This document shows positions 4,225-43,542 of a stretch of DNA of 52,963 nt, piece after piece. Position numbers and translations under genes: made by a program. Under the pieces are notes generated by a model that saw nothing but the letters and a program-made list of their open reading frames with translations, was not told the origin of the DNA and searched no databases. Location of the stretch: NCBI GenBank assembly GCA_029068555.1, contig JAIECJ010000210.1, positions 1 through 52,963 of the forward strand, read 5' to 3'. Numbering within the stretch: the first letter of the stretch is position 1; the number at the start of each line of letters is the position of its first letter. Origin of the DNA: Lachnospiraceae bacterium. Its GTDB lineage: Bacteria; Bacillota; Clostridia; Lachnospirales; Lachnospiraceae.

Positions 4225-4331
4225 GAGCGTTTTTGAAAAATGCTCTCTGCCAGATGTGTGTCACAGTTTGTGGGAGATTTGTGCCAAATGAAGGTGGTAT
4301 AGCGGGCAAAGGCATAAAGGGCAATGCCTTA
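4223..4331 (+). repeat. MITE-like element A, left-half copy 1
   Basis: It starts TAGAGCGTTTTTGAAAAATG and matches the left half of the full 210-bp element at 6682 down to GCAATGCCTTA, where the match stops. The right half is missing. It abuts element B and separates rimI from rnz. The short open frame across it (MKNALCQMCVTVCGRF) recurs in another copy and is a by-product of the repeat. Confidence 0.8.
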
Positions 4332-6681: not shown

Positions 6682-6891
6682 TAGAGCGTGTTTGAAAAAT
6701 GCTTTCTGCCAGATGTGCGTCACAGTTTGCGGGAGATTTGTGCCAAATGAAAGAGGCGTAGGGGTCAAAGGCATAAAGGGCAATGCCTTATGCCTTTGAC
6801 TGAATTTGGCACAAATATCACGCAAAATGGTGAATACGACGCTTTGGCGTCGTTATGCAGGTGGTAGGAATGATTTTTCAAACACGCTCTA
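6682..6891 (+). repeat. MITE-like element A, complete copy
   Basis: The 210-bp element is bounded by perfect 19-bp inverted repeats TAGAGCGTGTTTGAAAAAT (6682-6700) and their complement (6873-6891). Internal pairs such as GTGCCAAAT/ATTTGGCAC and GGCATAA/TTATGCC mean the whole element can fold as one long hairpin. The terminal TA dinucleotides fit a TA target duplication, as with Tc1/mariner or IS630 elements. It encodes no transposase. It lies between the YcxB-like gene and the exporter operon. Confidence 0.88.
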
Positions 6892-26028: not shown

Positions 26029-26131
26029 TAGAGCGTGTTTGAAAAATGCTTTCTGCCAGGTATGCGTCACAGTTTGTGGGAGATTTGTGTCAAATGAAGG
26101 AGGCATAGGGGGCAAAGGCATAAAGGGCAAG
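26029..26131 (+). repeat. MITE-like element A, left-half copy 2
   Basis: It starts TAGAGCGTGTTTGAAAAATG and follows the left half of the full element to AAAGGGCAAGG, then diverges. It lies 48 bp upstream of the restriction-modification pair and may mark the left edge of that insertion. Confidence 0.8.
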
Positions 26132-29374: not shown

Positions 29375-29854
29375 TTAACGGTCAACATACTCGTCCCGCA
29401 GAAGGCGAAGCAGTATCACATCATAAAATTGGTCATTATAAAAACAACCTTGCTCCTGAACACCCTCAAGCTTGTAGCCCGCTTTTTTAAAGAACTGTAC
29501 AGCCCCCTTATTAAAATCTGCTATCCGCACTGCGATCCTCTGGTATGCCAGAATATCAAATATGTACTGCTCCACAAGCCTAAGCGCTTCCATTCCGTAG
29601 CCCTGCCCGCGCTTTTCCTCATCCTGAATCACAATCTGAAGCCTGGTGTTTTTCCATTCCGGATGGCAGTGCACGATTCCAATCCTGCCAATCGGCAGAT
29701 TCCCTTCCTTGCTGACAATCACATACCATGCATTGATATCACTATCAGATCTATCCCCTTTGGGAAGCGGGTATAATTCAATTCTTTCCGATTCCAAATA
29801 TTCTAATTCTAAATTTTTCATACAAAAACATCCGCTTTTCGTTGTGTCTGTCAT
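29375..29854 (-). CDS. GNAT-family acetyltransferase (RimJ/RimL-like)
   Basis: This 159-residue GNAT protein begins with a short tail and LEYLESERIELYPL, then shows GRIGIVHCHPEWKNTRLQIVIQDEEKRGQGYGMEALRLVEQYIFD with the acetyl-CoA binding Q/RxxGxG/A loop (EEKRGQGYG, about residues 85-93) and the late HN/FNKGAVQFFKKAGYKLEGVQEQ common to RimJ/RimL-type enzymes. The ATG at 29854 has a strong GGGGAGG site 6 nt upstream. It stands alone on the minus strand and convergent with the nuclease gene. The substrate is unknown. Confidence 0.85.
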   Translation of the reverse strand: MTDTTKSGCFCMKNLELEYLESERIELYPLPKGDRSDSDINAWYVIVSKEGNLPIGRIGIVHCHPEWKNTRLQIVIQDEEKRGQGYGMEALRLVEQYIFDILAYQRIAVRIADFNKGAVQFFKKAGYKLEGVQEQGCFYNDQFYDVILLRLLRDEYVDR

Positions 29855-30011
29855 TTCTATCCTCCCCTACAGCTGTCAGCGTTCCTGTCAATCCCTCATT
29901 AACATGCTTTTGTCCTTTCAATATCATTTTATCATTGGATAAATGCATTTACAATCAATAGAATATTGAGCCATAAGGGAAAACTCAATGATTATGAATG
30001 CTACATCCGCA

Positions 30012-30143
30012 AGAGCATGTTTGAAAAAAGCTTTCTGCCAGATGTGCGTCACAATTTGTGGGAGATTTGTGCCAAATGAAGAAGGCGCAGGGGGCAAAGG
30101 CATAAAAGGCAGTACCTTACTTCGACTGAATTTGGTGCAAATA
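30012..30143 (+). repeat. MITE-like element A, degraded copy 3
   Basis: It starts AGAGCATGTTTGAAAAAAGC and continues through the left half, then skips to CTTCGACTGAATTTGGTGCAAATATCA of the right half. The outer right end and the left TA are lost. Its right edge reaches the last codons of the YesL gene at 30148. Confidence 0.75.
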
Positions 30144-30147
30144 TCAG

Positions 30148-30789
30148 TCAGGACAATCCACTATCCTCCATGCCCTGTCTTTCCAATATCTCGGAAAAAA
30201 TCTTATTGTAATATAAGGAAAAAATATATACCACAATCCCGACGCCTACTGACAGAGTAATAAAGTTTGCCAAAACAATTGTCATGTTAAGGCACAGGGC
30301 AATAGCCGCCACGCATATCATCTGAATGGTATATTTGAAATATTTTATTGATAAACCAAAAGCATACCGCAGCGTTTTTGCCACCGGATTGACAAACTTC
30401 GCCTGAACCGCAAATGTATACAACAATGTCATTGCGTATGGTATCAGCAGTGCGATGGCTCCATACCGGACAAACCGCCCCAGTCCCGAAGCGGTATACC
30501 CTGATAAAATCAAATCCATCAAAAGAAGTCCCCCGATAATCAGAAATATCACATACAAAATTGTTGACTGTATAAAATTTTCCCGAAAAGAACGAAAAAA
30601 ATTGCGCGTTGCATATCCTTCTTTGTTATGAAGCTTCATACAGCTATAAATCAATGCCGTCGTCGAAGCGCCAACTGTGATAAGAGGAAGGGAACACAGC
30701 AGCCATAAAATATGAAGCCACCAAATATATCCTACTGTCCCCAGAAAGCGAAATACAACATTATCCGCATCAAAAATTCTCTCCAGCAT
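30148..30789 (-). CDS. YesL/DUF624 family membrane protein
   Basis: The 213-residue protein has an N-terminal VGYIWWLHILWLLCSLPLITVGASTTALIYSCMKL, the hallmark of YesL/DUF624, and about five membrane segments in all. Members sit in CUT1 sugar importer clusters and may help transporter assembly, but their exact role is not established. It lies downstream of the SBP-permease-permease genes on the same strand, separated by a hairpin. The end of the gene touches a degraded element A, so the last residues may differ from the ancestral ones. Confidence 0.85.
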   Translation of the reverse strand: MLERIFDADNVVFRFLGTVGYIWWLHILWLLCSLPLITVGASTTALIYSCMKLHNKEGYATRNFFRSFRENFIQSTILYVIFLIIGGLLLMDLILSGYTASGLGRFVRYGAIALLIPYAMTLLYTFAVQAKFVNPVAKTLRYAFGLSIKYFKYTIQMICVAAIALCLNMTIVLANFITLSVGVGIVVYIFSLYYNKIFSEILERQGMEDSGLS

Positions 30790-30851
30790 TCTGTCTTACC
30801 TCCAAAACTGCTAAGTACCTGCGAACTTGATCCCTGTCCTAATTTGCCGCG

Positions 30852-30905
30852 TGAAACTTAGATTTTCTAAGGCTGTGTCCTTTACAGCCTTAGAAAATCT
30901 TTTCA
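30852..30905. terminator. Long hairpin between permease and YesL genes
   Basis: Perfect 17-bp arms AGATTTTCTAAGGCTGT (30860-30876) and ACAGCCTTAGAAAATCT (30884-30900) have a 7-nt loop. Outer GTGAAA/TTTCAC pairs extend it. The position suggests a partial terminator or mRNA-stabilising stem that lowers YesL relative to the importer. Confidence 0.6.
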
Positions 30906-30907
30906 CA

Positions 30908-31759
30908 TTAGCCTTTGACTCCGCCTGCCGCTATTCCTTCCACAAACTGATCCTGTGCGAGGAAAAATACAACCAGTGACGGCACAATAGATATCAACGA
31001 GGTTGCCAGTACACGGTTCCACTCAAATCCATTATCTGCGTCCATTGACAACTTTACAAAAATCGCCGCCGGATATCTTGCCGGTGTCTTGACATACAGC
31101 AGCGGTCCCATAAAGTCATTTGAAGACCACATAAACTGGAACAGCGCACAGGAAACAAGCGCCGGAAGCAGCATCGGAACAATCACACTAACCAATGTCT
31201 GCATGACATTGCAGCCGTCAATCTTTGCCGCCTCCTCCAGCTCCTTTGGGATATTTCTCAAAAACTGAACCAGCATAAATACAAAATAGGTATCTGTCGC
31301 AAACAATGTCGGAACAATCAGCGGCAGGTAAAGCTTCGAATCTACCCAGTTTAGTTTTGTGTAGAGAATAAACTGTGGCACATTGAGAACTACCTGTGGC
31401 AAAAATAATGTTGACATCAGCACAGCAAAGAGAATTCCCCTGCCCTTGAACTTAAATCGCCCAAAACCGTATGCCGTCAGTGTTGACGATACTAGTGTGA
31501 AAATAACTTTCGGAATCACGTAGGAATATGTATTAAGCATCGCTTTCCAAATATTAATATCACCACCATAGCTGTTCATCGCATTTTTGTATCCGTCCAG
31601 CGTCGGATTTTTGGGAATGAGTCCAATTCCTGAAAAAATTTCCACATTACTTTTGAATGTAGCGCCTATCATCCACAAAAGAGGGTATACCATCACAAGA
31701 CCAACTGCGATAAGTACCAGATATTTCATAATATCCCCTAATCTTTTCTTTTTCTGCAT
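30908..31759 (-). CDS. CUT1 sugar ABC transporter permease (MalG type)
   Basis: This 283-residue inner-membrane permease has six membrane segments and the EAA loop ELEEAAKIDGCNVMQTLVSVIVPML (about residues 169-193), which contacts the cytoplasmic ATPase. A typical MalG ending (LAQDQFVEGIAAGGVKG) confirms the type. It starts 4 nt after the stop of the partner permease. No ATPase gene is present, so it likely uses a shared MsmX-like ATPase. The galactan locus in the same window makes galacto-oligosaccharides a reasonable, unproven substrate. Confidence 0.92.
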   Translation of the reverse strand: MQKKKRLGDIMKYLVLIAVGLVMVYPLLWMIGATFKSNVEIFSGIGLIPKNPTLDGYKNAMNSYGGDINIWKAMLNTYSYVIPKVIFTLVSSTLTAYGFGRFKFKGRGILFAVLMSTLFLPQVVLNVPQFILYTKLNWVDSKLYLPLIVPTLFATDTYFVFMLVQFLRNIPKELEEAAKIDGCNVMQTLVSVIVPMLLPALVSCALFQFMWSSNDFMGPLLYVKTPARYPAAIFVKLSMDADNGFEWNRVLATSLISIVPSLVVFFLAQDQFVEGIAAGGVKG

Positions 31760-31762
31760 TGA

Positions 31763-32653
31763 TTATCTCCCCTCCTCGTCTGAATAGTAAACCCAGTACT
31801 TTTGACTGACAAAGGCAATTACCGTAAACACCATCAGAATGATAAACAATACCCATGCCATCGCACTCGCCATACCCATCTCGTAATTTTTGAAGGCGCT
31901 GTTGTATATCAGCAGTGATATGAGCGTCGTCGAATTGCGCGGTCCTCCCTGTGTAATAATGTACGGACCGTTGAACTCCTGAAATGCCTGGCAAATCTGT
32001 GTGACCAAATTATAGAAAATAATCGGTGTAATCAGCGGAACCGTAATCGAGAAAAACTGTCTCCATTTTCCAGCGCCGTCTATCGTTGCCGCCTCGTATA
32101 GTTCTGTCGGCACACCTTTGAGCGCTGCAAGGAATATGACCATCGCGGAACCAAACTGCCACACGCGTAGAAGACATATGACAAACAGTGCATAGGAAGG
32201 GTCACTCAACCAACTCGGTCCATTGATGCCAAATATTGCAAGCAGCGTATTCAGAAGACCGTCATCCTTAAAGATTGCTTTCCATAAAACTGCAATTGCA
32301 ACACTTCCGCCCAATATGGATGGAATATAGTACGCAGTCCGGAACAGATTCACACCCTTAATCTTAAAGTTAAGAATATACGCAATGAACAATGCCGCGA
32401 CCAATTTCAGAGGTACAGTGATAAATGAATACTGAAACGTAACCTTAAGTGCCCTTAAAATCTTAGGTGTCGTAAAGATATCCACATAATTTTCCAATGT
32501 ATATCTGGAAACACCGTTGAAAAGCTGATAATCCGTAAAGCTATAATATAGTGATGATGCAAACGGATATAACTTAAATACCAGAAAACCAATCAGCCAA
32601 GGAATGATAAACAGGAATCCTATATTGTCTTTTAGAAACTTTTTCTTCCCCAT
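31763..32653 (-). CDS. CUT1 sugar ABC transporter permease (MalF type)
   Basis: The 296-residue protein starts with a basic MGKKKFLKDNIGF and the first membrane segment (FLFIIPWLIGFLVFKLYPF), with six segments in total and the EAA motif VPTELYEAATIDGAGKWRQFFSITVPLITP (about residues 180-209). It is the MalF-like partner of the next gene and follows the solute-binding lipoprotein by 17 nt. The three genes share one transcript, beginning at the lipoprotein gene. Confidence 0.92.
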   Translation of the reverse strand: MGKKKFLKDNIGFLFIIPWLIGFLVFKLYPFASSLYYSFTDYQLFNGVSRYTLENYVDIFTTPKILRALKVTFQYSFITVPLKLVAALFIAYILNFKIKGVNLFRTAYYIPSILGGSVAIAVLWKAIFKDDGLLNTLLAIFGINGPSWLSDPSYALFVICLLRVWQFGSAMVIFLAALKGVPTELYEAATIDGAGKWRQFFSITVPLITPIIFYNLVTQICQAFQEFNGPYIITQGGPRNSTTLISLLIYNSAFKNYEMGMASAMAWVLFIILMVFTVIAFVSQKYWVYYSDEEGR

Positions 32654-32670
32654 ATTCTACCTCATCTTCC

Positions 32671-34080
32671 TTATTTACTAAGCTCCTCCTCAATCCCATC
32701 AATCAGAATAGAAGCAGCTTCCGCCATATCATAATCCCCATAACTTAAACCTGCCATTACATCATAGTAAACACCATCCGAGTTTTTCAGCGTAGCTGCC
32801 TCGAACTTAAAATCAAGCGGGAATGTTACCCAGTCCAGCACTTTCTCATTTGCCTCTGCGACAATTGCATTTAGCAACCCCTTTGACTGACAATTTGCAA
32901 GTGCAGCAGCACTGAGTGGAATGCCTCGTTCAGATGCCATAATTGTTGTTCCTTCGTCTTCATTTAACAGGAAATTCAACAGCATTGCCGCCTCTTTTGG
33001 ATGCGCGCAGGACTCAGAGATTGCAAATGCAAGAGAGACCTTGGAATATCCGCCCTGATGGCTGCCCATGTCCGTAAAATATGTACCAACCACAAACTCC
33101 TGTCCTTCTTCCAATGCTGCTTCAAACTTGCTTGCAGAAGAATCCCACTCGAAGATTCCTGCATAAGTACCGTTCATCCATTTCGGGTTTTTGTCAAGCG
33201 ATTCAGCGCCATCCCCTGTAATGGTCTGAATGGAAGGTGTCACATGTGCATCCTCCAGAGACTGTATAAACTGAAGCCCCTCCTGAATCTCCTCCGCCGT
33301 ATACTGCAGTGCATCATTTTCAACCCATGGCTTGCCATATACAGATTCAAGGTAATACACCATTAAAATCATACGATCATACTCGCCAAGCGCAATCGGA
33401 TAATAATCATCTCCCAGCTGTGACTTAAACGTTTCCCCTGCTGACTTCAGCTCTTCCAATGTTTCAGGAACATCAATCCCAGCCTTATCAAAGGTTGACT
33501 TGTTCCAGTAAAAAATTCTTCCTGTCATCGAAACCGGAACCGCCTGAAGCTCCCCTGCCACAGTACACTGTCCAAGCGCCTCCTGTGAATACTGACCTAA
33601 ATCAAGCACATCAGAGACCTGATTTAAATCCAGAAAAGCACTACCATCAGAGCTATAGGAATCCAGCCAGTTCCAGTTAATCTGATTGACATCCGGCGCC
33701 GTTTTGGTCGCAAACATTGTTGCCATGGAATCCTCCCAGCCTGACCATGCCCCATATGTGGACTCCACCTTGATTCCTGGGTACTTCTCCTCAAATGCTT
33801 TGACTGCATCAAGCGTTGCCGTATGTCTTGACTCCCCGCCCCACCATGAAAAACTCAGCGTGCATGCTTCATAAGAACCATCATTTTGTGCAGAATCTGT
33901 TGTCGCATCAGCCTCCGCAGAAGGTACCTGAGCTTCTGCTGGCTCCGGTTCTGCCGGTGCCTGTTCCACTGACTGATTAGAGGACTGTTTTTCCTCTGGT
34001 GCCTGTCCTCCGCAGGCTGCTGTTCCCATTGTCATCACCGCGGCAACACTAAGAGCGACAATTTTTTTAACTTTTTTCAT
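32671..34080 (-). CDS. Sugar ABC transporter solute-binding lipoprotein
   Basis: The 469-residue protein has a lipoprotein signal (MKKVKKIVALSVAAVMTMG) with lipobox TAAC, placing the lipidated cysteine at residue 23. A low-complexity Gln/Glu/Ala linker (about 24-65) precedes the type-1 solute-binding fold: LSFSWWGGESRHTATLDAVKAFEEKYPGIKVE, with LNFLLNEDEGTTIMASERGIPLS late. It delivers a carbohydrate to the two permeases downstream. The tryptophan-rich YGAWSGWEDSM fits oligosaccharide binding. The start has AAGGAGATAG upstream. Substrate assignment to beta-galactan fragments is inferred only from the nearby GH53 locus. Confidence 0.92.
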   Translation of the reverse strand: MKKVKKIVALSVAAVMTMGTAACGGQAPEEKQSSNQSVEQAPAEPEPAEAQVPSAEADATTDSAQNDGSYEACTLSFSWWGGESRHTATLDAVKAFEEKYPGIKVESTYGAWSGWEDSMATMFATKTAPDVNQINWNWLDSYSSDGSAFLDLNQVSDVLDLGQYSQEALGQCTVAGELQAVPVSMTGRIFYWNKSTFDKAGIDVPETLEELKSAGETFKSQLGDDYYPIALGEYDRMILMVYYLESVYGKPWVENDALQYTAEEIQEGLQFIQSLEDAHVTPSIQTITGDGAESLDKNPKWMNGTYAGIFEWDSSASKFEAALEEGQEFVVGTYFTDMGSHQGGYSKVSLAFAISESCAHPKEAAMLLNFLLNEDEGTTIMASERGIPLSAAALANCQSKGLLNAIVAEANEKVLDWVTFPLDFKFEAATLKNSDGVYYDVMAGLSYGDYDMAEAASILIDGIEEELSK

Positions 34081-34597: not shown

Positions 34598-36298
34598 CTA
34601 TACCCCTACCCGAATCACAACATCTGCCGCTGCAATTGTACTAGGCCGGTGGGCTATCATCAAAATAGTACGGTCTCCCCGCAGTTTTTTGACAGCTTCC
34701 TGCACAAGTGATTCGGACTCATTATCAAGCGCTGATGTCGCTTCATCCAGTATCATAACAGGCGCATCTCTGATAATAGCGCGCGCAATCGCAATCCGCT
34801 GCCGTTCTCCTCCCGACAATGTATTGCCGCGCTCTCCCAGCACTGTATCATACCCGTCTGGCAGCCTTATAATAAATTCATGGGCGTTCGCCGCCTTTGC
34901 CGCTAATACAACCTCCTCACGGCTTGCGCCACATCTGCCGTAAGCAATATTTTGGGCAATACTCACTTCATATAGATATGGCTCCTGCGGGACATAGGCA
35001 ATCTGTTGTCTGATTCCTTTCAGTGTAAAGTTCTGATACTCCTTTCCTCCAATTGACATGCTTCCCGACTCCACTGGATAAAAGCCCAGCAATAGCTTTG
35101 CAAGTGTACTTTTTCCACAACCAGATTCACCTACCACAGCCACATAGCTTCCTTTTTTGACTTCCATGGAAAACTGTTCCAGTACTTTCCTCCCACTATC
35201 GCCCGCACAATCATAAGAAAAGCTCACATTCCGCACAGACAGCATTATCTCATCCTTTGTATCTGTCATACTGTCATGGCAGCTGTCCTGAGCGGACTCC
35301 TGCTCCCACTGCTCTGGCTCCTCATCCATATCAATAAACGCAAAAATCTTCTCAGCATTGGCGATGCAGTTCATCATCTGCGGCAAATACTGACCGATTT
35401 CCAGAAAAGCATTCCGGAATGTACCATACAGTGAATACAATGCTGTCAACGCCCCCAGACTTACCCGCCCCTGGGATACAAACCATATACCCAGTCCCAG
35501 AAAAGCCAGTGCGCCAATCAGGTCAAACATCTGATTCAGGGACTCAAGCCCTGCAGACAATCGGTTTGTACTTTTCTGAATCTGGAAATATTCCCTGCCT
35601 GTTGTCTCGTATTCTGCTGTCAGCTTTGCGCCAACCGGAAAAATTTTAATCAGTTCCATTCCAGACAAAATACTTGTCAGTTTTTCAAGCATTATTTTAT
35701 TCTTGTCGGAAAGACGGCTTCCTGCTTTTTTCAAAGGTTTTGCAAAAAAGCTGTCCACCGCAAAAACAAGCAGGCTGATTCCAATCATACAAAGCGTAAG
35801 CTCCCAGCTAAAGTAAAACATTGGAATTAGATACACTATCGTTGATATGATGGCCGCAAGCAGTCTGCGAAGCCTCGATGTGTAAATGTCTGAAGCTTTC
35901 TGGGTATCAAAAATCAGACGCGACATAAAATCGCTGCTGTGGTTGTTCTCATAATACGACATTGGCAGGCGCATTGCCTTGGAAAAAACAAGCTTTTCCA
36001 CTTTTCCAGCCCCTTTCCGCCCCTCAATATTGTAGCGGATGATGCCAAACCGCCAAAGCAGCAGACATACCACAAAAACCACAAAGTTTTCAAGAACAGG
36101 CAGGAGCACATTATCCGTATTCCTGTCCTGTGCTGCTGTGACAATGTTCTTAATCAAATAAGAATTTGCTATCCTGCGGCCTGCATCCCCCAGCGTAGAA
36201 ACCAAAATAGCTCCCAGATAAACAGGCAGCCTGTCACCCATCAATCCCATAAATCGAAAAAACGTATTGACTTCACCCTTTTGCATACATTTCCGCAT
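34598..36298 (-). CDS. ABC exporter half-transporter 2 (membrane domain plus ATPase)
   Basis: The 566-residue half-transporter has six membrane segments (about 20-330) fused to an ATPase domain: Walker A GESGCGKST (about 393), Q-loop YVPQEPYLYEVSI, signature LSGGERQRIAIARA, Walker B VMILDEATSALDNES and MIAHRPST. It pairs with the half-transporter encoded just upstream, overlapping it by 26 nt. The C terminus ends ADVVIRVGV right after the switch region and so lacks about 20-25 usual residues, a mild truncation. A GAAGGGGAA site supports the ATG at 36298. Confidence 0.9.
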   Translation of the reverse strand: MRKCMQKGEVNTFFRFMGLMGDRLPVYLGAILVSTLGDAGRRIANSYLIKNIVTAAQDRNTDNVLLPVLENFVVFVVCLLLWRFGIIRYNIEGRKGAGKVEKLVFSKAMRLPMSYYENNHSSDFMSRLIFDTQKASDIYTSRLRRLLAAIISTIVYLIPMFYFSWELTLCMIGISLLVFAVDSFFAKPLKKAGSRLSDKNKIMLEKLTSILSGMELIKIFPVGAKLTAEYETTGREYFQIQKSTNRLSAGLESLNQMFDLIGALAFLGLGIWFVSQGRVSLGALTALYSLYGTFRNAFLEIGQYLPQMMNCIANAEKIFAFIDMDEEPEQWEQESAQDSCHDSMTDTKDEIMLSVRNVSFSYDCAGDSGRKVLEQFSMEVKKGSYVAVVGESGCGKSTLAKLLLGFYPVESGSMSIGGKEYQNFTLKGIRQQIAYVPQEPYLYEVSIAQNIAYGRCGASREEVVLAAKAANAHEFIIRLPDGYDTVLGERGNTLSGGERQRIAIARAIIRDAPVMILDEATSALDNESESLVQEAVKKLRGDRTILMIAHRPSTIAAADVVIRVGV

Positions 36299-37976
36299 AA
36301 ATTCCCCTTCTCTCCATCAGTTCCCTGTGCGTCCCTGACTCTGCTATCTTACCGCCGTTTACCACATAAATCCGCTTTGCATTTCTAACTGTGGACAATC
36401 TGTGTGCAATCACGATAACCGTTCTCCCAGACGCAATCCGCTCAACAGCTTCCTGAATCTTTTGCTCCGCCTCGACATCGACTGCGGCGGTCGGCTCATC
36501 CAGCAATAAAATCGGCGCATCTTTCAAAAAAGCCCTTGCGATAGAAATCCGCTGTCTCTGCCCTCCGGAAAGACGCACGCCGCGCTCACCCACAATCGTC
36601 TCATATCCATCAGGAAGCTGAATGATAAAATCATGGATATTTGCATTCCTGCATGCCATTACGACCTCCTCATCTGTGGCATATTCTTTTCCACACGCAA
36701 CATTCTGCCGAATCGTTCCAGGAAACAGAAATACATTCTGTGAAACCTCCGAAAAACAGCTTCTTGCCGCTTCCAAATCCCACTCCTCAAAGGGATGTCC
36801 AAAAAGCCTGTACTGACCATTATCCCTATCGTAAAAACCGCAGAGCAACTTGAAAATTGTTGACTTTCCCTCTCCAGATCCACCCACAAAGGCAGTCTGT
36901 TCCCCTGTCTCAATCCCAAAGCTCATCCCGTTTAATACAGGATGATCCCCACTACTGCTATAGCCAAAGCTCACATTGTTCCACTCGATTGCAGGTAAAT
37001 CTTTACTGCAATCTGGCAATGTCTGTACCCTGCCGCCTGTCTGTTCTTCTTTCTGGTTATATATCTCCTGTATCCGCCTGAGGGATACCGCAGCCTCGCG
37101 AATATCGTTTGCGCAGAATACTATATCGCCGATAGGATATAAAATCCTGCTCAGAACTACTGTAAACGCAAGCATTTCCCCAACTGTAATCCTTCCCTGC
37201 ATAGTCTCGTACAGTGCAAATAAATAGCAGACAATCACAGGAATTGTGGTGATTACATTTTTCAGCACCCATCCCATAGAGGAAATGCGTGTGCTCCTGC
37301 ACGCCTGATCCACCTTCCGGTCGATGACGGTGTCGATTTCCTTCTTCTGCACCTCATAGAGATTGTAACTCCTGCCAATCACAATACCCTGAATCGCATC
37401 GTAAGCCTTTTTGTTGCATTCATCCATATGGGTGCGCAGCTTCTGAGCGATCTGGGCAAGCTTCTTTGACAGTCGGTCTGCCACGATCAGCATCACTGGG
37501 TAACTCGCAAACAGTACGACTATCAGCAATGCATCCATCTGAACAAGATAAATCGTCGCGGTCACTACCACAATCAGATTAACAAGAAGATTCGGCAGAA
37601 TTTCCGAAAAAAATCTCCCCAGTTCATCCATGTCTGATATCAGTCTCGTGATAATACTTCCACTGCCCATTTCATCAAAGTAGGAAAAAGGAAGCCTGAC
37701 TAAATGTTTTCCAAGCGATGCACGCACGTCCCTCTGTACCATCGCGCTGTAATGATTACTAAAAATACCTTTGAGATACGCCGCTGCTGTCCCCAGCACA
37801 ATCATCCGCAGCAACGGCGTCATAAACGCTTCGAAATCTACCTGCTGTCCGCCCATCACCCCATCTGCAGCCTGAGCGATCAAGTCATTTCCCAGAAGTA
37901 TGATTTCATTCAAAACTACTGAGAATATTATAAACAGCAGCAGCATATACCCATTGCGCAAACCAGCCTTTACCAT
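36273..37976 (-). CDS. ABC exporter half-transporter 1 (membrane domain plus ATPase)
   Basis: The 567-residue partner has a full membrane domain and a complete ATPase: GGSGEGKST (Walker A), Q-loop EVSQNVFLFPGTI, LSGGQRQRISIARAF, ILLLDEPTAAVDVEAE and VIVIAHRLSTVRNAKRIYVVNGG. The ATG at 37976 follows GGGAGG at 5 nt; the GTG at 38018 would add 14 residues overlapping nothing useful. It lies 63 nt after the XRE-PurM regulator and overlaps the second half-transporter by 26 nt, so the three genes form one operon. Substrate is unknown: drug, peptide or metabolite. Confidence 0.92.
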   Translation of the reverse strand: MVKAGLRNGYMLLLFIIFSVVLNEIILLGNDLIAQAADGVMGGQQVDFEAFMTPLLRMIVLGTAAAYLKGIFSNHYSAMVQRDVRASLGKHLVRLPFSYFDEMGSGSIITRLISDMDELGRFFSEILPNLLVNLIVVVTATIYLVQMDALLIVVLFASYPVMLIVADRLSKKLAQIAQKLRTHMDECNKKAYDAIQGIVIGRSYNLYEVQKKEIDTVIDRKVDQACRSTRISSMGWVLKNVITTIPVIVCYLFALYETMQGRITVGEMLAFTVVLSRILYPIGDIVFCANDIREAAVSLRRIQEIYNQKEEQTGGRVQTLPDCSKDLPAIEWNNVSFGYSSSGDHPVLNGMSFGIETGEQTAFVGGSGEGKSTIFKLLCGFYDRDNGQYRLFGHPFEEWDLEAARSCFSEVSQNVFLFPGTIRQNVACGKEYATDEEVVMACRNANIHDFIIQLPDGYETIVGERGVRLSGGQRQRISIARAFLKDAPILLLDEPTAAVDVEAEQKIQEAVERIASGRTVIVIAHRLSTVRNAKRIYVVNGGKIAESGTHRELMERRGIYAEMYAKG

Positions 37977-38039
37977 AAAGTCCTCCCTTACAACAACCAT
38001 ATTTCTGACGACATGCACCTTTACGGCATATTAATGTTT

Positions 38040-39284
38040 CTACATTAACCAAACGCGCGCATCCGGATGTTCCCCATCCTTTTCTATTCTTCCGATACAT
38101 TCACATGAATGGTATTGTTCTATAATTTTCACTGCCCTGTCACACTGCTCCCTGGGAACTGCCAGCAGCATCCCGATGCCGAGCGAAAAATCCTCCAAAA
38201 AACACTCCCTGTCCATCATATTCAAATCGTACAGATATTGAAACAACGCTGGCATTGGTATTCTGTCAAGAGAAATACCTGCTCCAAGACCTTTCGGCAT
38301 TGTATCATAGCATTTCCTGTTAAATAATGATTTGCTAATGACAAAAACACCATGTATGAGGTTCTGTCTGTTAAGCTCACAGACTACATTAACATAGGAA
38401 GTGTTCGGTTTCATCAGTTCGTCCATAAATACCTTCTCCCCGTCAATCTTTTCGTATGCTATGTCTGGTCTTCTGTCAAGAATAACTTTGACAAAGGGAT
38501 AACTGAGCGATGAAATGCCTTCTGTATGCAGTGCAATTAAGACATCCCCCTCTGCAATCCTGTCGCCCGTTATGATTTCCTTTCTGTCAGAATTGCCCAT
38601 CACCAAAGCCCCTATTTTATATTCATCCGCACCGTAATTGACTGCCTGAGCTGCTACCTCCAATCCTGCGAATATGATTCCACTGTCCTCACATGCCTCT
38701 TTGAAAGCTTCTCCCATGAACAGGATCTGACCGCTGTCATTATTTCCACAGACTATATTCACTAGTAAAATAGAAGGCTTCACACCAAAGCGTATCAGAT
38801 TGTTGGCGGCAGTTGACACCAAGTCCATACAGATTTCCCTGTCATACCCGTTTTCCATGGCAAAACGTTCCTTGGAACCGGGAACATGGTTCGCCAATAC
38901 ACACACTGGCTCCTCCATGCCAGAAAGATCTGGCTTAAAAAATACAGGGTCGGCAACGTTTGTGTGAATCAGCCTGTCATCCGGTGTGATAAGGCGGCTT
39001 AGTTTGTCCTTTACAATATGAAGTTTTTTGGCATCCAGACCAGTATCTATATAGCTGATAGTCTTTCTTTCCTCCGAAAGTCCATTCAGCAGAAAATCAA
39101 CAGTCGTATCAAGCACCTGCGCGATATCATAAATCATATCCACTGACGGCAGGCTGATTCCCTGCTCCCATCTTGAAACCGCCTGATAGGAGACGTTTAG
39201 CAAATCTGCAAGCTGCTTCTGCGTCATTCCTTTTATCTTCCTCTGTTCTGAGACTGCCCTTCCAACCTTCTCCCTGTCAAGCAT
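38040..39284 (-). CDS. XRE helix-turn-helix fused to degenerate PurM (AIR synthase) domain
   Basis: Residues 1-68 form an XRE/Cro repressor-type DNA-binding domain (QRKIKGMTQKQLADLLNVSYQAVSRWEQGISLPS). Residues 85-414 follow the whole PurM (AIR synthase) fold, from DDRLIHTNVADPVFF to FSLGIGMLLAVPREQCDRAVKII. Key catalytic spots differ: the DGVGTK loop reads HVPGSK, GGETAEMPGMY reads AGLEVAAQAVNY, and ITGGG reads VISKS. The enzyme activity is probably lost, and the fold may bind a nucleotide-like ligand. It is the first gene of the exporter operon, so it probably controls that operon from its own promoter. I know of no described function for such a fusion. Confidence 0.85.
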   Translation of the reverse strand: MLDREKVGRAVSEQRKIKGMTQKQLADLLNVSYQAVSRWEQGISLPSVDMIYDIAQVLDTTVDFLLNGLSEERKTISYIDTGLDAKKLHIVKDKLSRLITPDDRLIHTNVADPVFFKPDLSGMEEPVCVLANHVPGSKERFAMENGYDREICMDLVSTAANNLIRFGVKPSILLVNIVCGNNDSGQILFMGEAFKEACEDSGIIFAGLEVAAQAVNYGADEYKIGALVMGNSDRKEIITGDRIAEGDVLIALHTEGISSLSYPFVKVILDRRPDIAYEKIDGEKVFMDELMKPNTSYVNVVCELNRQNLIHGVFVISKSLFNRKCYDTMPKGLGAGISLDRIPMPALFQYLYDLNMMDRECFLEDFSLGIGMLLAVPREQCDRAVKIIEQYHSCECIGRIEKDGEHPDARVWLM

Positions 39285-39408
39285 TTTATCTCCTCCCTGT
39301 ATTTGTCTTTAAAGGTTTACCAGTAACCTTCCCCTTTACAGAAAAGTTTATCACAGCACAATGAAATTCACAATCAACGAACTATTGAGACAGAACGCGA
39401 AACTCAAC

Positions 39409-39617
39409 TAGAGTGTGTTTGAAAAATCATTCCTACCACCTGCATAACGACGCGTACGCGTCGTATTCACCACTTTGCGTGATATTTGCGCCAAATTCAG
39501 TCAACGTAAGGCATTGCCCTTTATGCCTTTGCCTCCTATGCCTCCTTCATTTGGCTCAAATCTCCCACAAACTGTGACGCACATCTGGCAGAAAGCATTT
39601 TTCTTTTTTCAAACTGC
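39409..39617 (-). repeat. MITE-like element A, near-complete copy in reverse orientation
   Basis: It begins TAGAGTGTGTTTGAAAAATC, which is the right end of the element reversed, and runs through to AGAAAGCATTTTT. The outer end then reads CTTTTTTCAAACTGC instead of the standard repeat. It fills most of the gap between the XRE-PurM gene and the tandem AraC genes, just upstream of the AraC promoter. Confidence 0.82.
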
Positions 39618-39645: not shown

Positions 39646-39674
39646 TTTACCCACTTTTTTTATTGTGTTATACT
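39646..39674 (+). promoter_or_regulatory. Promoter of the tandem AraC genes
   Basis: TTTACC (39646-39651) and TATACT (39669-39674) are 17 bp apart. The first AraC gene starts 60 nt downstream with an AGGAGGAGGG site. Confidence 0.55.
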
Positions 39675-39733
39675 CGATACAATCAATTAGCGTCCACTTT
39701 TTCACAAAAATTTTCAGGAGGAGGGAATCTTTC

Positions 39734-40588
39734 ATGCCGCTTCCATTAAAGCCGGGATATCACTTTCATTATGAGCACAATATCCGTCCACCGTATTTTG
39801 AGATGACCGCAGCGGAGGCATACACAGATTTCTATGCCGTCTCCTATATAATAAGCGGCGAACTGCTCAGCTGTTCTCCCAGTGTTACGAAGATTATCAG
39901 GGCTGGTGACCTTACATTCACACCGAAAAACATCTATTTCCGCACTGTCTGTGTATCCGATGAACCGCGCGAAAATTTTCTTATGAAATTTACAGATTCC
40001 ATGATTGATGATTTTCTACGGACTGCCGGGTTTGACAGTTTTAATGAATTTTACGCAGCACATGCCACAATTCACATTCAAAAAAGCGCACAGGATAAAG
40101 TTCTATCCATTATCCGTGAGCTTGAAAAAGAGTGGAACGCCTATGGAAGATATTCGGAAATTTTATTAAAGGGACTTTTAAATAAACTCATTATTACAGC
40201 CATAAGAGATGGAATCAGTGATCCATATATACCAACTATAAAATCCAAAAGTCATGAGTACTATATGGATGCTGCTGTGCAATATATTCATATGCATCTG
40301 ACTGAAAACCCTACCTTATCAAAAACTGCCGCCGCCGTGAATATTTCCGCATCGTACTTGTCAAAACTGTTTATTAATTACATGCACACCCCTTTTTCTA
40401 CTTTTGTACTAAATGAAAAAGTCCTGGCTGCCCGCAATCTGCTCGCTGACTCAAGGCTCAGCATTAATGAGATTGCCTTTAAAACGGGATTTTCCAGCTC
40501 CGCCTATTTCAGCGACTGCTTTAAACGCATCACAGGAGAATCGCCGTTACAGTTTCGAAAAAAATATGAACGGTTCGAAAACGGATAA
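39734..40588 (+). CDS. AraC-family regulator, tandem copy 1
   Basis: A 284-residue AraC protein with an N-terminal cupin-like sensor (MPLPLKPGYHFHYEHNIRPPYFEMTAAEAYTDFYAV) and a C-terminal double helix-turn-helix (about 185-280: LSKTAAAVNISASYLSKLFINYMHTPFSTFVLNEK, then SINEIAFKTGFSSSAYFSDCFKRITGESPLQFRKKY). The start at 39734 follows CAGGAGGAGGG; a longer open frame to 39665 has no binding site. It is followed after 11 nt by a close paralogue. The target is unknown; the nearest loci are the XRE-PurM exporter and the galactan genes. Confidence 0.9.
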   Translation: MPLPLKPGYHFHYEHNIRPPYFEMTAAEAYTDFYAVSYIISGELLSCSPSVTKIIRAGDLTFTPKNIYFRTVCVSDEPRENFLMKFTDSMIDDFLRTAGFDSFNEFYAAHATIHIQKSAQDKVLSIIRELEKEWNAYGRYSEILLKGLLNKLIITAIRDGISDPYIPTIKSKSHEYYMDAAVQYIHMHLTENPTLSKTAAAVNISASYLSKLFINYMHTPFSTFVLNEKVLAARNLLADSRLSINEIAFKTGFSSSAYFSDCFKRITGESPLQFRKKYERFENG

Positions 40589-40599
40589 GGAGGATTATT

Positions 40600-41439
40600 A
40601 TGCCGCTTCCATTAAAGCCAGGTTACAACTTTAATTTTGCTCGCATTCGCCGTCCGCCGCACTATGAGATGTCAGCTGCTGAGGCATACACGGATTTCTA
40701 CGGCATCTCCTATATGATCAGCGGCGAGCGCCTGATTTACGCACCGGACTACACCACTATTACACAGGCGGGTGAATTGAATTGTATTCCAAAATACGTG
40801 TATCGACGCACCACATATATATCTGATATGCCTTATGAGCATATCCTTATCAAATTTACGGATTCCATGGCTGCGGAGCTCTTTGATGTCATCGGCATTG
40901 AAAATTACAACGAACTCTGTCAGGAACATGTTATCCGGTTTGAAAAAAACACACAGGATAAAATTAGCGCAATTTTTCAGGAAATGGAACAGGAATGGAA
41001 TGCTTACAACAAGTACTCCGAGCTGCTTTTGAAAGGGCTGCTGCACAAGCTGATTATTACCTGCCTGCGTGAGCGCATCATCAGTGATGTCAATGTCCTC
41101 AGCCTTGAAAAGAAACATGACTGTCTTGCGGATGCAATCAAATATGTAAAGTCTCACCTGCGCGAGAATCCATCGCTGAACACGACTGCGCAGCAGATTA
41201 ATATTTCTCCCTCTTATCTGTCCAAAATATTTGTGACGTATCTGCACACACCGTTTTCTACCTTTGTTCTGAATGAAAAAATGGCTTATGCACAAAAGCT
41301 CCTCGCTCATTCAAATTTGAGCATGACTGAGGTTGCCGTCGAAGCCGGATTTTCAAGCAGCTCTTATTTCAGTGACTGCTTCCGACGCAATGCGGGGATT
41401 TCGCCGCTGCAGTTTCGTAAAGAAAATCGTCCGTTCTAA
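40600..41439 (+). CDS. AraC-family regulator, tandem copy 2
   Basis: This 279-residue paralogue of the preceding gene has the same start (MPLPLKPGYNFNF), the same layout and clear similarity along its whole length, for example KFTDSMAAELFDVIG against KFTDSMIDDFLRTAG. The DNA-binding half (LNTTAQQINISPSYLSKIFVTYLHTPFSTFVLNEK and SMTEVAVEAGFSSSSYFSDCFRRNAGISPLQFRK) is the best conserved part. The pair probably arose by local duplication and may bind related operators while sensing different ligands. AAGGAGG precedes the ATG. Confidence 0.9.
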   Translation: MPLPLKPGYNFNFARIRRPPHYEMSAAEAYTDFYGISYMISGERLIYAPDYTTITQAGELNCIPKYVYRRTTYISDMPYEHILIKFTDSMAAELFDVIGIENYNELCQEHVIRFEKNTQDKISAIFQEMEQEWNAYNKYSELLLKGLLHKLIITCLRERIISDVNVLSLEKKHDCLADAIKYVKSHLRENPSLNTTAQQINISPSYLSKIFVTYLHTPFSTFVLNEKMAYAQKLLAHSNLSMTEVAVEAGFSSSSYFSDCFRRNAGISPLQFRKENRPF

Positions 41440-41491: not shown

Positions 41492-41710
41492 TTAGTCAAA
41501 ATCAAACTTCGTAAACCGTTTTGCCCTGTCAAGGTAACGGAACCGTACCATCTCATTTTTCTCAAGGACATCCTCCTCTGTGCCTCTATACTGACAGCGG
41601 ATGCAGCTGTAGATGCCTGTATCTTTATTGTAAAACATGTCGATGTCGAGGTCTCGCATAAAGCAGGATGGACATCTGTAATTTAATTTGCCTTTTCCAA
41701 GTTGAGCCAT
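41492..41710 (-). CDS. Small zinc-ribbon protein in the galactan locus
   Basis: The 72-residue protein has a four-cysteine zinc ribbon: C13, C16 (RCPSCF) and C36, C39 (SCIRCQ), with aromatic and charged residues after it. The ATG at 41710 has AAGGAGG about 10 nt upstream and overlaps the end of the 619-residue gene by 28 nt. No family is recognised. It is the last gene of the galactan transcript before the terminator and could be a small regulator or RNA- or protein-binding adaptor. The function is not known. Confidence 0.7.
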   Translation of the reverse strand: MAQLGKGKLNYRCPSCFMRDLDIDMFYNKDTGIYSCIRCQYRGTEEDVLEKNEMVRFRYLDRAKRFTKFDFD

Positions 41711-43542
41711 GTTGCAAATACCTCCTTATCAGAAATTGTCTTCTTGTAGCCGAGCTTGAACATCGGTGAGAACGCGTATCCCTCCTCGATATAACCGAGC
41801 GCCTTGTCAGAGGCAGTGAGAGAAACCTTTGTCTCGATTGCCGGAATCACTGCACTTACTGCACTTGCGCCGTCAAGCTTCGCATCGCGGCATCTGTACT
41901 CATAGTTGATGGTCTCGCCGCCTTCACCTTCACATGCGAGTGTGATACCGGTCATGTCCTCTGGATACTCTGTTGTGCCATAGCATGCTGTGATGTACTC
42001 ATCAAGCGTAATCTCTGCGGACGGGTCGCTGATTTCAAGAATATTTCTCTCAATCTTGATATTGGAAGCGCCTTCCTCAAAGTATTCCTTTGTCTGAAGC
42101 TTCACAGTCACGCCGTTAAACTGGATTTCAACAGGGTCAAGTGTCAGGATGCGCGTCTTTTTGCCGTCAATCACTTCCTCCGAGAAATGGCTGTGTGTCG
42201 GACAGAGACAGAGGTCAACTTCCTCACCCTTATAAGAAAGCTTCGCACTTCTCACGGTACCTGCTCCTGCATAGTGTGTAAAGTAACCTGCACGATACTT
42301 CTCCTGAATCAGGAACGGGTAGGAAGCATCCTGTACATGTGGTGTGCCGATGCCGACAGGCCAGTTTAATTTTGCCACATAAGGGCGAAGGTCAACAATC
42401 GCGCCGCCCTGATCCATGTTCACGCATGCTCTCATGTACGGGTCACAGTACCAGAACAGCTGCTTGTCAGACCCGTAGAGGATATCCCGCCATGGCGCAC
42501 ACTCCGGCTCATTGTAGTTTCCTGCGTTGACGCCTTTCTTTTCTCTATAATAGTCTGCAAACTCTGCCATGGTCATGTCGATGAGCTTGCCCTCTTTTTT
42601 CAGGTCTCCGTAGTACTTGCAGCCATCGCTGTATGACTTATACAGAAGCTCATAGGGCTGCTCCCAGCGTCCCATCTTGTTCATCCAGCCTGGTCCTACG
42701 AACATCATGTTGTAGGAGTAGCCGTTGTTGTACTTTGCAAGGTCGCGGTACTGGTCAATCAGGTTATAGAGATAGGGATATTCCCATGTCTTCGTGTCGT
42801 AAATCATGCCGCGAAGCACGTTCTGCGGATGCGTGCCGAAGTTTGAACCATTTCCGTCATAACATGCAATCAAGTCTCTTGACAGATGCGGGATTGCAAC
42901 AATTCCAGAGTCCTCTGCTGCATTTGCCGCAGGTGCATGGGTATTTTGTTTTGATGGAATCCACGGTGCCCATGGACCGCCGTCAAATAGTGTGTACCAT
43001 GAATTGTTGCAGGTGTGGTATGCCTTTGGTCCTTCCTCCCAGCATGTCGCAACCGCGCATTTTACAGTCGGATACTTTTCCTTGATGTAGTTTGTCAGCT
43101 CGGCATCCATATAGTAAGATCCTGTTGACTCTGGATAAAATCCAAATTTGTCATGGAACTTCTCAAAAACATCATTGACGATTGCCTTCTTGTCCTCCAT
43201 CGAGAACATCCAGATACAGAAGTCCTTTGTCTTGTACTTCTCACGGAACTCCTCGCAGGGAAGTCCGAGCAGGGAAAGTGCAATCTCATCACCAAACTCC
43301 TCATGGTCATGTTTTGCAATCTCCACTGCCTCATCATTGAACAATGAAGCGTAGGTCATCTGGATTGTCACCTTCAGACCATTCTCATGTGCCAGTCTCT
43401 GCTGTGTCTTGAAGATATCGAGCGATTCGGTCAAGAGTGCCTTATCTCCGATATCCTCCTCCTTTCCCTGTCCTGTGACAGTCGCAGAATACTCCGGAAC
43501 CATCTCCGGACGATGGATAATGTTTAATACAAATTTATCCAC
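41683..43542 (-). CDS. Unrecognised 619-residue protein, possible carbohydrate-active enzyme
   Basis: I do not recognise a named family. There is no signal peptide or membrane segment. The N-terminal 330 residues read like a beta/alpha barrel: LNIIHRPEMVPEY at the start with H10, KVTIQMTYASLF, AKHDHEEFGDEIALSLLG (H78, D79, H80), and GFYPESTGSYYMDAELTNYIKEKYPTVKCAVATCWEE (134-170), which recalls NodB/GH57-type deacetylase or hydrolase barrels. The remaining part is beta-rich. It starts 25 nt after the lacZ stop, so the two are translated together. A role in trimming or deacetylating a galactan side group is a guess. Confidence 0.7.
   Translation of the reverse strand: MDKFVLNIIHRPEMVPEYSATVTGQGKEEDIGDKALLTESLDIFKTQQRLAHENGLKVTIQMTYASLFNDEAVEIAKHDHEEFGDEIALSLLGLPCEEFREKYKTKDFCIWMFSMEDKKAIVNDVFEKFHDKFGFYPESTGSYYMDAELTNYIKEKYPTVKCAVATCWEEGPKAYHTCNNSWYTLFDGGPWAPWIPSKQNTHAPAANAAEDSGIVAIPHLSRDLIACYDGNGSNFGTHPQNVLRGMIYDTKTWEYPYLYNLIDQYRDLAKYNNGYSYNMMFVGPGWMNKMGRWEQPYELLYKSYSDGCKYYGDLKKEGKLIDMTMAEFADYYREKKGVNAGNYNEPECAPWRDILYGSDKQLFWYCDPYMRACVNMDQGGAIVDLRPYVAKLNWPVGIGTPHVQDASYPFLIQEKYRAGYFTHYAGAGTVRSAKLSYKGEEVDLCLCPTHSHFSEEVIDGKKTRILTLDPVEIQFNGVTVKLQTKEYFEEGASNIKIERNILEISDPSAEITLDEYITACYGTTEYPEDMTGITLACEGEGGETINYEYRCRDAKLDGASAVSAVIPAIETKVSLTASDKALGYIEEGYAFSPMFKLGYKKTISDKEVFATWLNLEKAN

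Follow-up and report, generated by a model that had tools for sequence, protein, structure and literature searches.

A helix-turn-helix protein with a PurM-like pseudoenzyme domain beside an ABC exporter in a Lachnospiraceae genome: a candidate family of autoregulating one-component regulators

What a protein that joins a DNA-binding motif to the fold of PurM (AIR synthetase, EC 6.3.3.1) is doing at the head of a pair of ABC exporter genes is the question raised by one locus of a Lachnospiraceae bacterium (assembly GCA_029068555.1, contig JAIECJ010000210.1), analyzed here in a window that is the whole stretch of 52,963 nucleotides. An earlier note, made from the sequence alone, had described an XRE-type helix-turn-helix (HTH) fused to a full-length but probably inactive PurM-like domain, and had proposed that this domain senses a nucleotide-like metabolite and tunes the two exporter genes downstream. 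The three genes concerned are the following.

38040..39284, minus strand: putative HTH-PurM regulator, 414 aa, XRE helix-turn-helix at about residues 1-69 and PurM-like pseudoenzyme domain at about 77-414 (open reading frame, Pfam, NCBIfam, phmmer, AlphaFold2 and Foldseek)
36273..37976, minus strand: ABC exporter half 1, 567 aa, probably starting at the ATG behind GGAGG (the ORF tool gave a GTG at 38018)
34598..36298, minus strand: ABC exporter half 2, 566 aa, overlapping half 1 by 26 bases

The domain searches showed that the N-terminal part of the 414-aa protein belongs to the XRE/HTH_3 class (Pfam HTH_3, residues 13-65, E 2.6e-15, 56.6 bits against a cut-off of 23), and that AIRS_C lies at residues 245-405 (E 3.8e-9, above cut-off), while the AIRS N-terminal model stayed below its threshold (18.1 vs 24 bits). 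The top phmmer matches were PurM structures, with 2btu matching residues 122-400 at E 1.2e-33, and the score against the NCBIfam purM model TIGR00878 was 128.7 bits, far under the 236.35 cut-off for PurM. A structure predicted by AlphaFold2 from the window protein aligned to 45 relatives had a mean pLDDT of 91.5 and a pTM of 0.78, with residues 70-74, between the HTH and the PurM-like domain, as the sole low-confidence stretch. When this model was compared with the PDB by Foldseek, PurM entries ranked first and E. coli PurM (1cli_A) was the best match (E 2.2e-29, TM-score 0.88 by target length). The C-terminal domain is thus predicted to be of the PurM fold and not the phosphoribosyltransferase-fold effector domain of PurR-like proteins, and the HTH_3 match together with the likeness of the model to 1cli upholds the fusion of an HTH to a full PurM-like fold. 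A relocated housekeeping PurM was ruled out, since a separate PurM of 416 to 442 bits was found in 16/16 genomes checked, all of which hold an HTH-PurM or PurM-like copy beside it; these include the window's own genome (4,136,062 bases in 242 contigs), whose bona fide PurM lies on contig 227 and scores 427 bits.

To see what is left of the active site, the window protein was compared with 1cli over 266 aligned residues. In the sections of PMC3261824 drawn on here, the PurM active site is proposed to comprise His190, Asp65 and Asp94, which are invariant in the archaeal set, while four archaea have Asn where His247 would be. Asp65, Asp94, His190 and His247 correspond, at a net offset of 68, to positions 133, 162, 258 and 315 of the window protein, which carries His133, Asn162, Ser258 and Val315 there, so that the PurM active-site residues are absent. 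The replaced segments that had been noticed by eye were recovered in the alignment (DGVGTK by HVPGSK, GGETAEMPG by AGLEVAAQA, HITGGG by VISKSL), and the CVND and SSGxHSNG segments are likewise altered.

The relatives of the protein fall into two types, of which the window's is called type A and the other type B. The loss of catalytic residues extends to type A as a whole, with Asp65, Asp94 and His247 gone in 15/15 rows and His190 in 14/15, and none of the four kept in a second alignment of 16 rows that overlaps the first. For type B, Asp94, His190 and His247 are kept in 23/23 rows and Asp65 is Glu in 23/23. The type B motifs are EEPGSK, ND, GGETS(I/V)QP, HTNGY and HITGGG; those of type A are (V/I)PGSK, N followed by N/H/F/Y/S, G(L/M/F)E, TxGI and YPF, without HITGGG. 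The former active site of type A holds residues fixed in new or kept states, namely VPGSK or IPGSK, Asn161 and YPF: the GSK of DGVGTK, the Asn before Asp94 and Glu141 are kept in 15/15 rows (Glu141 in 14/16 rows of the second alignment, with Gly instead in L057 and L058), both types share the Gln of the GGET segment, only type A has a fixed Pro in YPF, and V134-E139, N161, Q213, G256, Y262-F264 and K266 are invariant within type A. Eight stand-alone relatives resemble type B at the active-site positions. PurM-like proteins that stand alone and read EEPGSK where PurM has DGVGTK were seen at L128, L130, L132-L135 and L137-L141, in Paenibacillus, Latescibacterota, Treponema, Woesearchaeota and Clostridia, the one at L128 scoring above the PurM cut-off with 245.9 bits.

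In a maximum-likelihood tree of 49 rows with a midpoint root and a bootstrap that is not fully settled, the 15 type A rows group as a single clade (100/100), set off by a branch with a length of 3.0 changes per column. The dN/dS ratios of eight type A pairs were all low, 0.076 to 0.097 for the whole gene and 0.080 to 0.112 for the PurM part, and these figures are rough because three of the eight pairs have a dS above 1. A decaying pseudogene was ruled out for type A on these ratios and on the open frames of the orthologues, the exceptions being contig ends and one N-rich assembly (G307); shortening was seen in some of the other copies (L045, L048). Judged from its sequences, type A is a conserved pseudoenzyme and not a ruin. 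As for type B, L083 reached 272.7 bits against the PurM cut-off of 236.35 and the complete type B copies in the checked genomes also pass it, so that type B may be annotated as a purine enzyme, a trap by which a regulator could receive an enzyme's name.

Matches at E <= 1e-30 were found in 19/38 genomes of the same genus. The window's type is present in 18 of those 19 (identity >= 36%), two of which (G327 and G334) hold both types, and G316 has the other type only. This frequency, together with purifying selection, indicates that the fusion is more than a chance event. For the family sample, 13/299 genomes matched, of which only the window's genome gave a type A match, and for the class sample 189/391 genomes matched a two-type profile at 1e-60; among the matches listed for the latter, the window's is the only one to start at model position 1, and most of the rest resemble PurM with no HTH. 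A scan of named genomes gave at least 79 loci, and the titles of the HTH-PurM loci among the matches listed are from Lachnospiraceae, Oscillospiraceae and other Clostridia, save a few unnamed ones. The view of the earlier note that no regulator of this type had been described agrees with a literature search by title, covering few subscription journals, in which no paper on a PurM/AIRS domain with an HTH regulator was found.

Exporter half 1 begins 63 bases past the stop of the regulator gene, and each half contains ABC_membrane and ABC_tran domains with Walker A, the LSGG signature, Walker B with its Glu, and AHR (H-loop). That the regulator heads an exporter operon was supported by the two same-strand exporter genes next to it and by downstream exporter genes on the same strand at 25/29 type A loci, compared with 1/72 of the other loci, which are type B, stand-alone and some PurM loci with some contigs counted twice. 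The link of this architecture to ABC exporters, which the earlier note had advised checking in other genomes, therefore holds for type A only, since type B is not linked to exporters. At L062 an AraC gene lies between regulator and exporter, and at L060 and L065 the contig stops inside the exporter. No exporter was found at the type A loci L057, L058, L059 and L072; no relative of exporter half 1 was found genome-wide at 1e-80 in G333 and G305 (L057 and L058), and the sole one in G314 (L059) is 31% identical. The exporters are 33% to 38% identical to the window's at L062, L076, L078, L079 and L082 and 45% to 89% at the other loci, and on account of those five loci the type A link spans distant exporters.

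The neighborhoods contained some further genes. The only non-type-A locus with an ABC exporter pair adjoining the PurM-like gene is L131:990-5554 (23% to 38% identity), whose PurM-like open frame has no HTH, though the scan matched it from residue 1. No partner genes of type B were seen beyond near relatives among the few neighbors compared with Pfam; a streptomycin adenylyltransferase-family gene (PF04439) lies directly upstream of one type B gene (L040:11019-11888, minus strand). In the window, a pair of AraC-type regulator genes, 54% identical to each other (39665-41439, plus strand), is divergent from the HTH-PurM gene, with relatives at the type A loci L051, L052, L056, L062 and L080 and a more distant one at L079. 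A 619-aa protein at 41683-43542 (minus strand), which had no Pfam match at 1e-5, adjoins a 1022-aa protein, and the two recur together upstream of type A genes within the genus.

The region before the regulator gene contains a conserved site, which we take as a candidate operator, and an exact copy of it stands before a GNAT acetyltransferase gene 9.4 kb from the regulator-exporter genes. The features concerned are as follows.

39370..39407, minus strand: 38-bp composite candidate operator TTGAGT-N12-CTCAAT-N5-RTTGATTGT before the regulator gene, with a 15-bp palindrome at 39374-39388
39345..39373, minus strand: predicted regulator promoter (consensus by eye and script), TTGTGA at 39368-39373, 17 bp, TAAACT at 39345-39350
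29951..29988, minus strand: second exact composite copy, before the GNAT gene, palindrome at 29955-29969
29926..29954, minus strand: predicted GNAT promoter (consensus by eye and script), TTGTAA at 29949-29954, 17 bp, TAAAAT at 29926-29931
29378..29854, minus strand: GNAT acetyltransferase, 159 aa, proposed second target

The layout is the same in both copies, the -35-like hexamer overlapping the site and the -10-like hexamer following 17 bases on. The palindrome, TCAAY-N5-RTTGA, is common to type A upstream regions: within 220 bases, the relaxed form CAAY-N5-RTTG occurs in 24/26 and the strict form in 21/26, in comparison to a mean of 0.56 (maximum 3/26) and 0.07 (maximum 2/26), respectively, in 300 dinucleotide shuffles, although related promoters are not independent in such counts. 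It is missing at L072 and L074 and lies at -218 in L054 and -210 in L080. Because the palindrome was first spotted by eye in the type A set, other sets are the better test; the relaxed and strict forms were found in 27/54 and 25/54 type B promoters, in comparison to 31/1199 and 20/1199 of the other genes of the same loci and 1/19 and 0/19 in a mixed set of relatives without HTH. A second motif, GTTATTG, occurs in 50/54 type B promoters compared with 23/1199 other genes, and the spacing from GTTGA to GTTATTG is 26 bases in 35/54 and 27 in 6/54. For type A, the distance from TTGA to a following TTGATTGT or TTATTG is 26 bases in 12/27 rows, 28 in 8/27, 29 in 1/27, 30 in 2/27 and 32 in 1/27, and three of the 27 have neither. 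From these spacing counts, types A and B seem to share a two-site plan in which some 30 bases, or roughly three turns of the helix, separate the sites.

The 38-bp composite has two exact copies in the 4.14-Mb genome and no other within three mismatches. A wide regulon is disfavored, since the 15-bp palindrome occurs at 25 genome places (7 for the reversed control) but the composite at only two. In the genome G301 the exact 19-mer occurs at two sites only, both orthologous to those of the window, and other type A genomes have the exact 19-mer once or twice, sometimes away from the regulator; in G305 and G333 the site at the regulator has one mismatch and the exact 19-mer lies inside an unrelated frame. 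Of the exact 19-mer sites in genomes other than the window's, five of those inspected (L186, L187, L188, L190 and L197) lie inside unrelated reading frames, and the 19-mer alone is thus no proof of a target. In type B genomes a composite pattern was found at the type B promoter in 7/9 with at most one mismatch; G268 has its only match, with two mismatches, elsewhere, and G131 has none. In four genomes the same search gave five further matches away from the promoter, each carrying one or two mismatches, a rate like that of the control with its eight matches. A 40-base sequence, CAAATCTCCCACAAAYTGTGACGCACATCTGGCAGAAAGC, is an abundant dispersed repeat with 64 plus 62 genome copies at three mismatches or fewer (reversed control 0); its window copies are at 39557-39596 (plus strand), 30030-30069 (minus strand), 4242-4281, 6701-6740 and 26048-26087, one of them near each of the two candidate operators.

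Homologues of the GNAT gene were found at 8/29 type A loci (the window, L051, L052, L054, L056, L057, L058 and L059), some contigs ending early. The gene follows exporter half 2 in L054 and L056 and comes directly after the regulator in L057-L059, that is, three genomes have the regulator with GNAT where the exporter is missing, two of them being nearly identical in the regulator gene. In the window, L051 and L052, exporter and GNAT are separated by other genes, including a sugar-type binding protein and permease; the solute-binding protein (PF01547) and binding-protein-dependent permease (PF00528) of the window, at 30151-34080 (minus strand), have counterparts in that place, among the compared loci, only in L051 and L052. 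The exact operator precedes GNAT in the window and L052 and is absent before the L051 GNAT. The protein is weakly like spermidine N1-acetyltransferase, the name borne by its best solved relatives, and scored 39.6 bits against a cut-off of 218 for spermidine N-acetyltransferase (NF011709), a likeness that does not fix its substrate. The conserved site, which does not figure in the earlier note, speaks indirectly for the promoter binding that the note had wished to see tested. The proposal that the regulator tunes the exporter is supported insofar as it heads the exporter operon, but the exporter is probably not its only target, and we judge a sole role for the exporter unlikely, given the second exact composite at GNAT and the three regulator-GNAT loci without exporter.

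The explanation that we favor, and consider moderately probable, is an autoregulating one-component regulator made of an XRE HTH and a dead PurM sensor, which most likely represses the regulator-exporter genes and GNAT until a ligand binds. The HTH dimer would bind TCAAY-N5-RTTGA together with another (half) site some 30 bp off, at its own promoter and at the GNAT promoter 9.4 kb away, and the PurM domain, having lost catalysis, would serve as dimerizer and ligand sensor; when a small molecule fills the remodeled pocket, repression would be lifted and the cell would acetylate and/or export that molecule. Repression is taken as most likely because the site overlaps the predicted -35, and a -35 palindrome at the regulator's own gene fits autorepression, although such overlap would fit an activator too. 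The fixed residues around the former active site suggest a ligand, for which a nucleotide-like compound, as the earlier note proposed, is plausible from the ancestry of the domain, while joint control of an acetyltransferase and an exporter, by likeness to the Blt/BltD system, would suggest protection from an amine-like compound. Counted against this explanation were the half of type B upstream regions without a relaxed palindrome, the palindromes missing or far upstream at the four type A loci named above, the four type A loci without exporter, and the presence of GNAT homologues at only 8/29 type A loci, with no site before that of L051.

Other readings of the same data were weighed against this one. 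We think it unlikely that the regulator instead activates the operon and GNAT, with the site just upstream of the -10 recruiting polymerase; the weak predicted -35 boxes (TTGTGA and TTGTAA) and the position of the site directly before the core promoter, at equal distance in both promoters, would suit such an activator, but the palindrome overlaps the -35 itself, which is the usual place for XRE repressors. It is quite unlikely that the PurM-like domain senses nothing and is a dimerization scaffold only, in a constitutive autorepressor holding the operon at a set level. PurM is a homodimer and the catalytic residues are gone in type A, as such a scaffold would allow, whereas the invariant residues of type A and the dN/dS of 0.080 to 0.112 in the PurM part argue against it, as a mere scaffold need not keep fixed residues.

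The palindrome could also belong to another regulator, for example the divergent AraC pair, whose two genes lie close by and have relatives at the six type A loci listed above; this we hold to be very unlikely, as the site also occurs before type B genes and at those type A loci that gave no AraC relative, and the common element of the site-bearing promoters is the HTH-PurM gene. Hardly to be expected is some catalytic activity, of the PurM or a related kind, retained by type A. The conservation of Glu141 (15/15 rows, 14/16 in the other alignment) and of GSK (15/15), and the largely intact active site of type B, speak for such activity, but the PurM active-site residues named in the consulted part of PMC3261824 are lost in type A and the TIGR00878 score is 128.7 against 236.35.

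Taking both types together, we give an even chance to a broader proposal, in which HTH-PurM proteins are an undescribed regulator family on the AIR synthetase fold, the near-intact type B autoregulating through a two-site operator, perhaps reading a PurM-type ligand and possibly being bifunctional, and the derived pseudoenzyme type A being re-tuned to a new ligand and controlling an ABC exporter and GNAT. Since near-intact and dead forms occur in one bacterial group with what seems a common operator plan, the step from enzyme to switch would be testable. If the proposal is true, the PurM fold joins the enzyme folds known as bacterial transcription sensors, and a defined promoter pair becomes available for finding what these gut-bacterial exporters move.

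One-component regulators with an enzyme-derived sensor are an established kind, as in NrtR (Nudix-HTH), BirA (HTH-biotin ligase) and the ROK repressors. HTH-PurM would be of this kind; none of the proteins named is known to have a PurM-like domain, and no bacterial precedent is known for a one-component regulator on that fold. PurM itself (AIR synthetase; 1cli, 2btu) shares the fold over nearly the whole length and sequence kinship but has no HTH, while the regulator is without the catalytic residues, scores below the PurM cut-off and coexists with a separate PurM. The Blt/BltD/BltR system of B. subtilis, with a MerR-type regulator, an MFS multidrug pump and a polyamine-type acetyltransferase, is alike in joining a regulator to a multidrug exporter and an acetyltransferase, and differs from the XRE-PurM protein, the ABC pair and the GNAT that is weakly like spermidine acetyltransferase here. 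SEPHS1 in Zincore (PDB 9hjt, row 50 of the Foldseek-PDB matches) is, going by its title, a member of the PurM superfamily in a DNA-bound complex, but an animal coregulator without an HTH of its own. The PurR of Bacillus subtilis, as described in the sections of PMC8789054 drawn on here, joins its DNA-binding domain to one that resembles a phosphoribosyltransferase, has no enzymatic activity and binds PRPP and (p)ppGpp, and so likewise combines an HTH with a catalytically dead purine-metabolism enzyme domain as sensor; the same sections give it a winged HTH, a phosphoribosyltransferase fold and control of purine genes, whereas type A has an XRE HTH on a PurM fold and two sites found in the genome. 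Of the systems compared, Bacillus PurR is the nearest in design to HTH-PurM, differing in fold, HTH class and targets.
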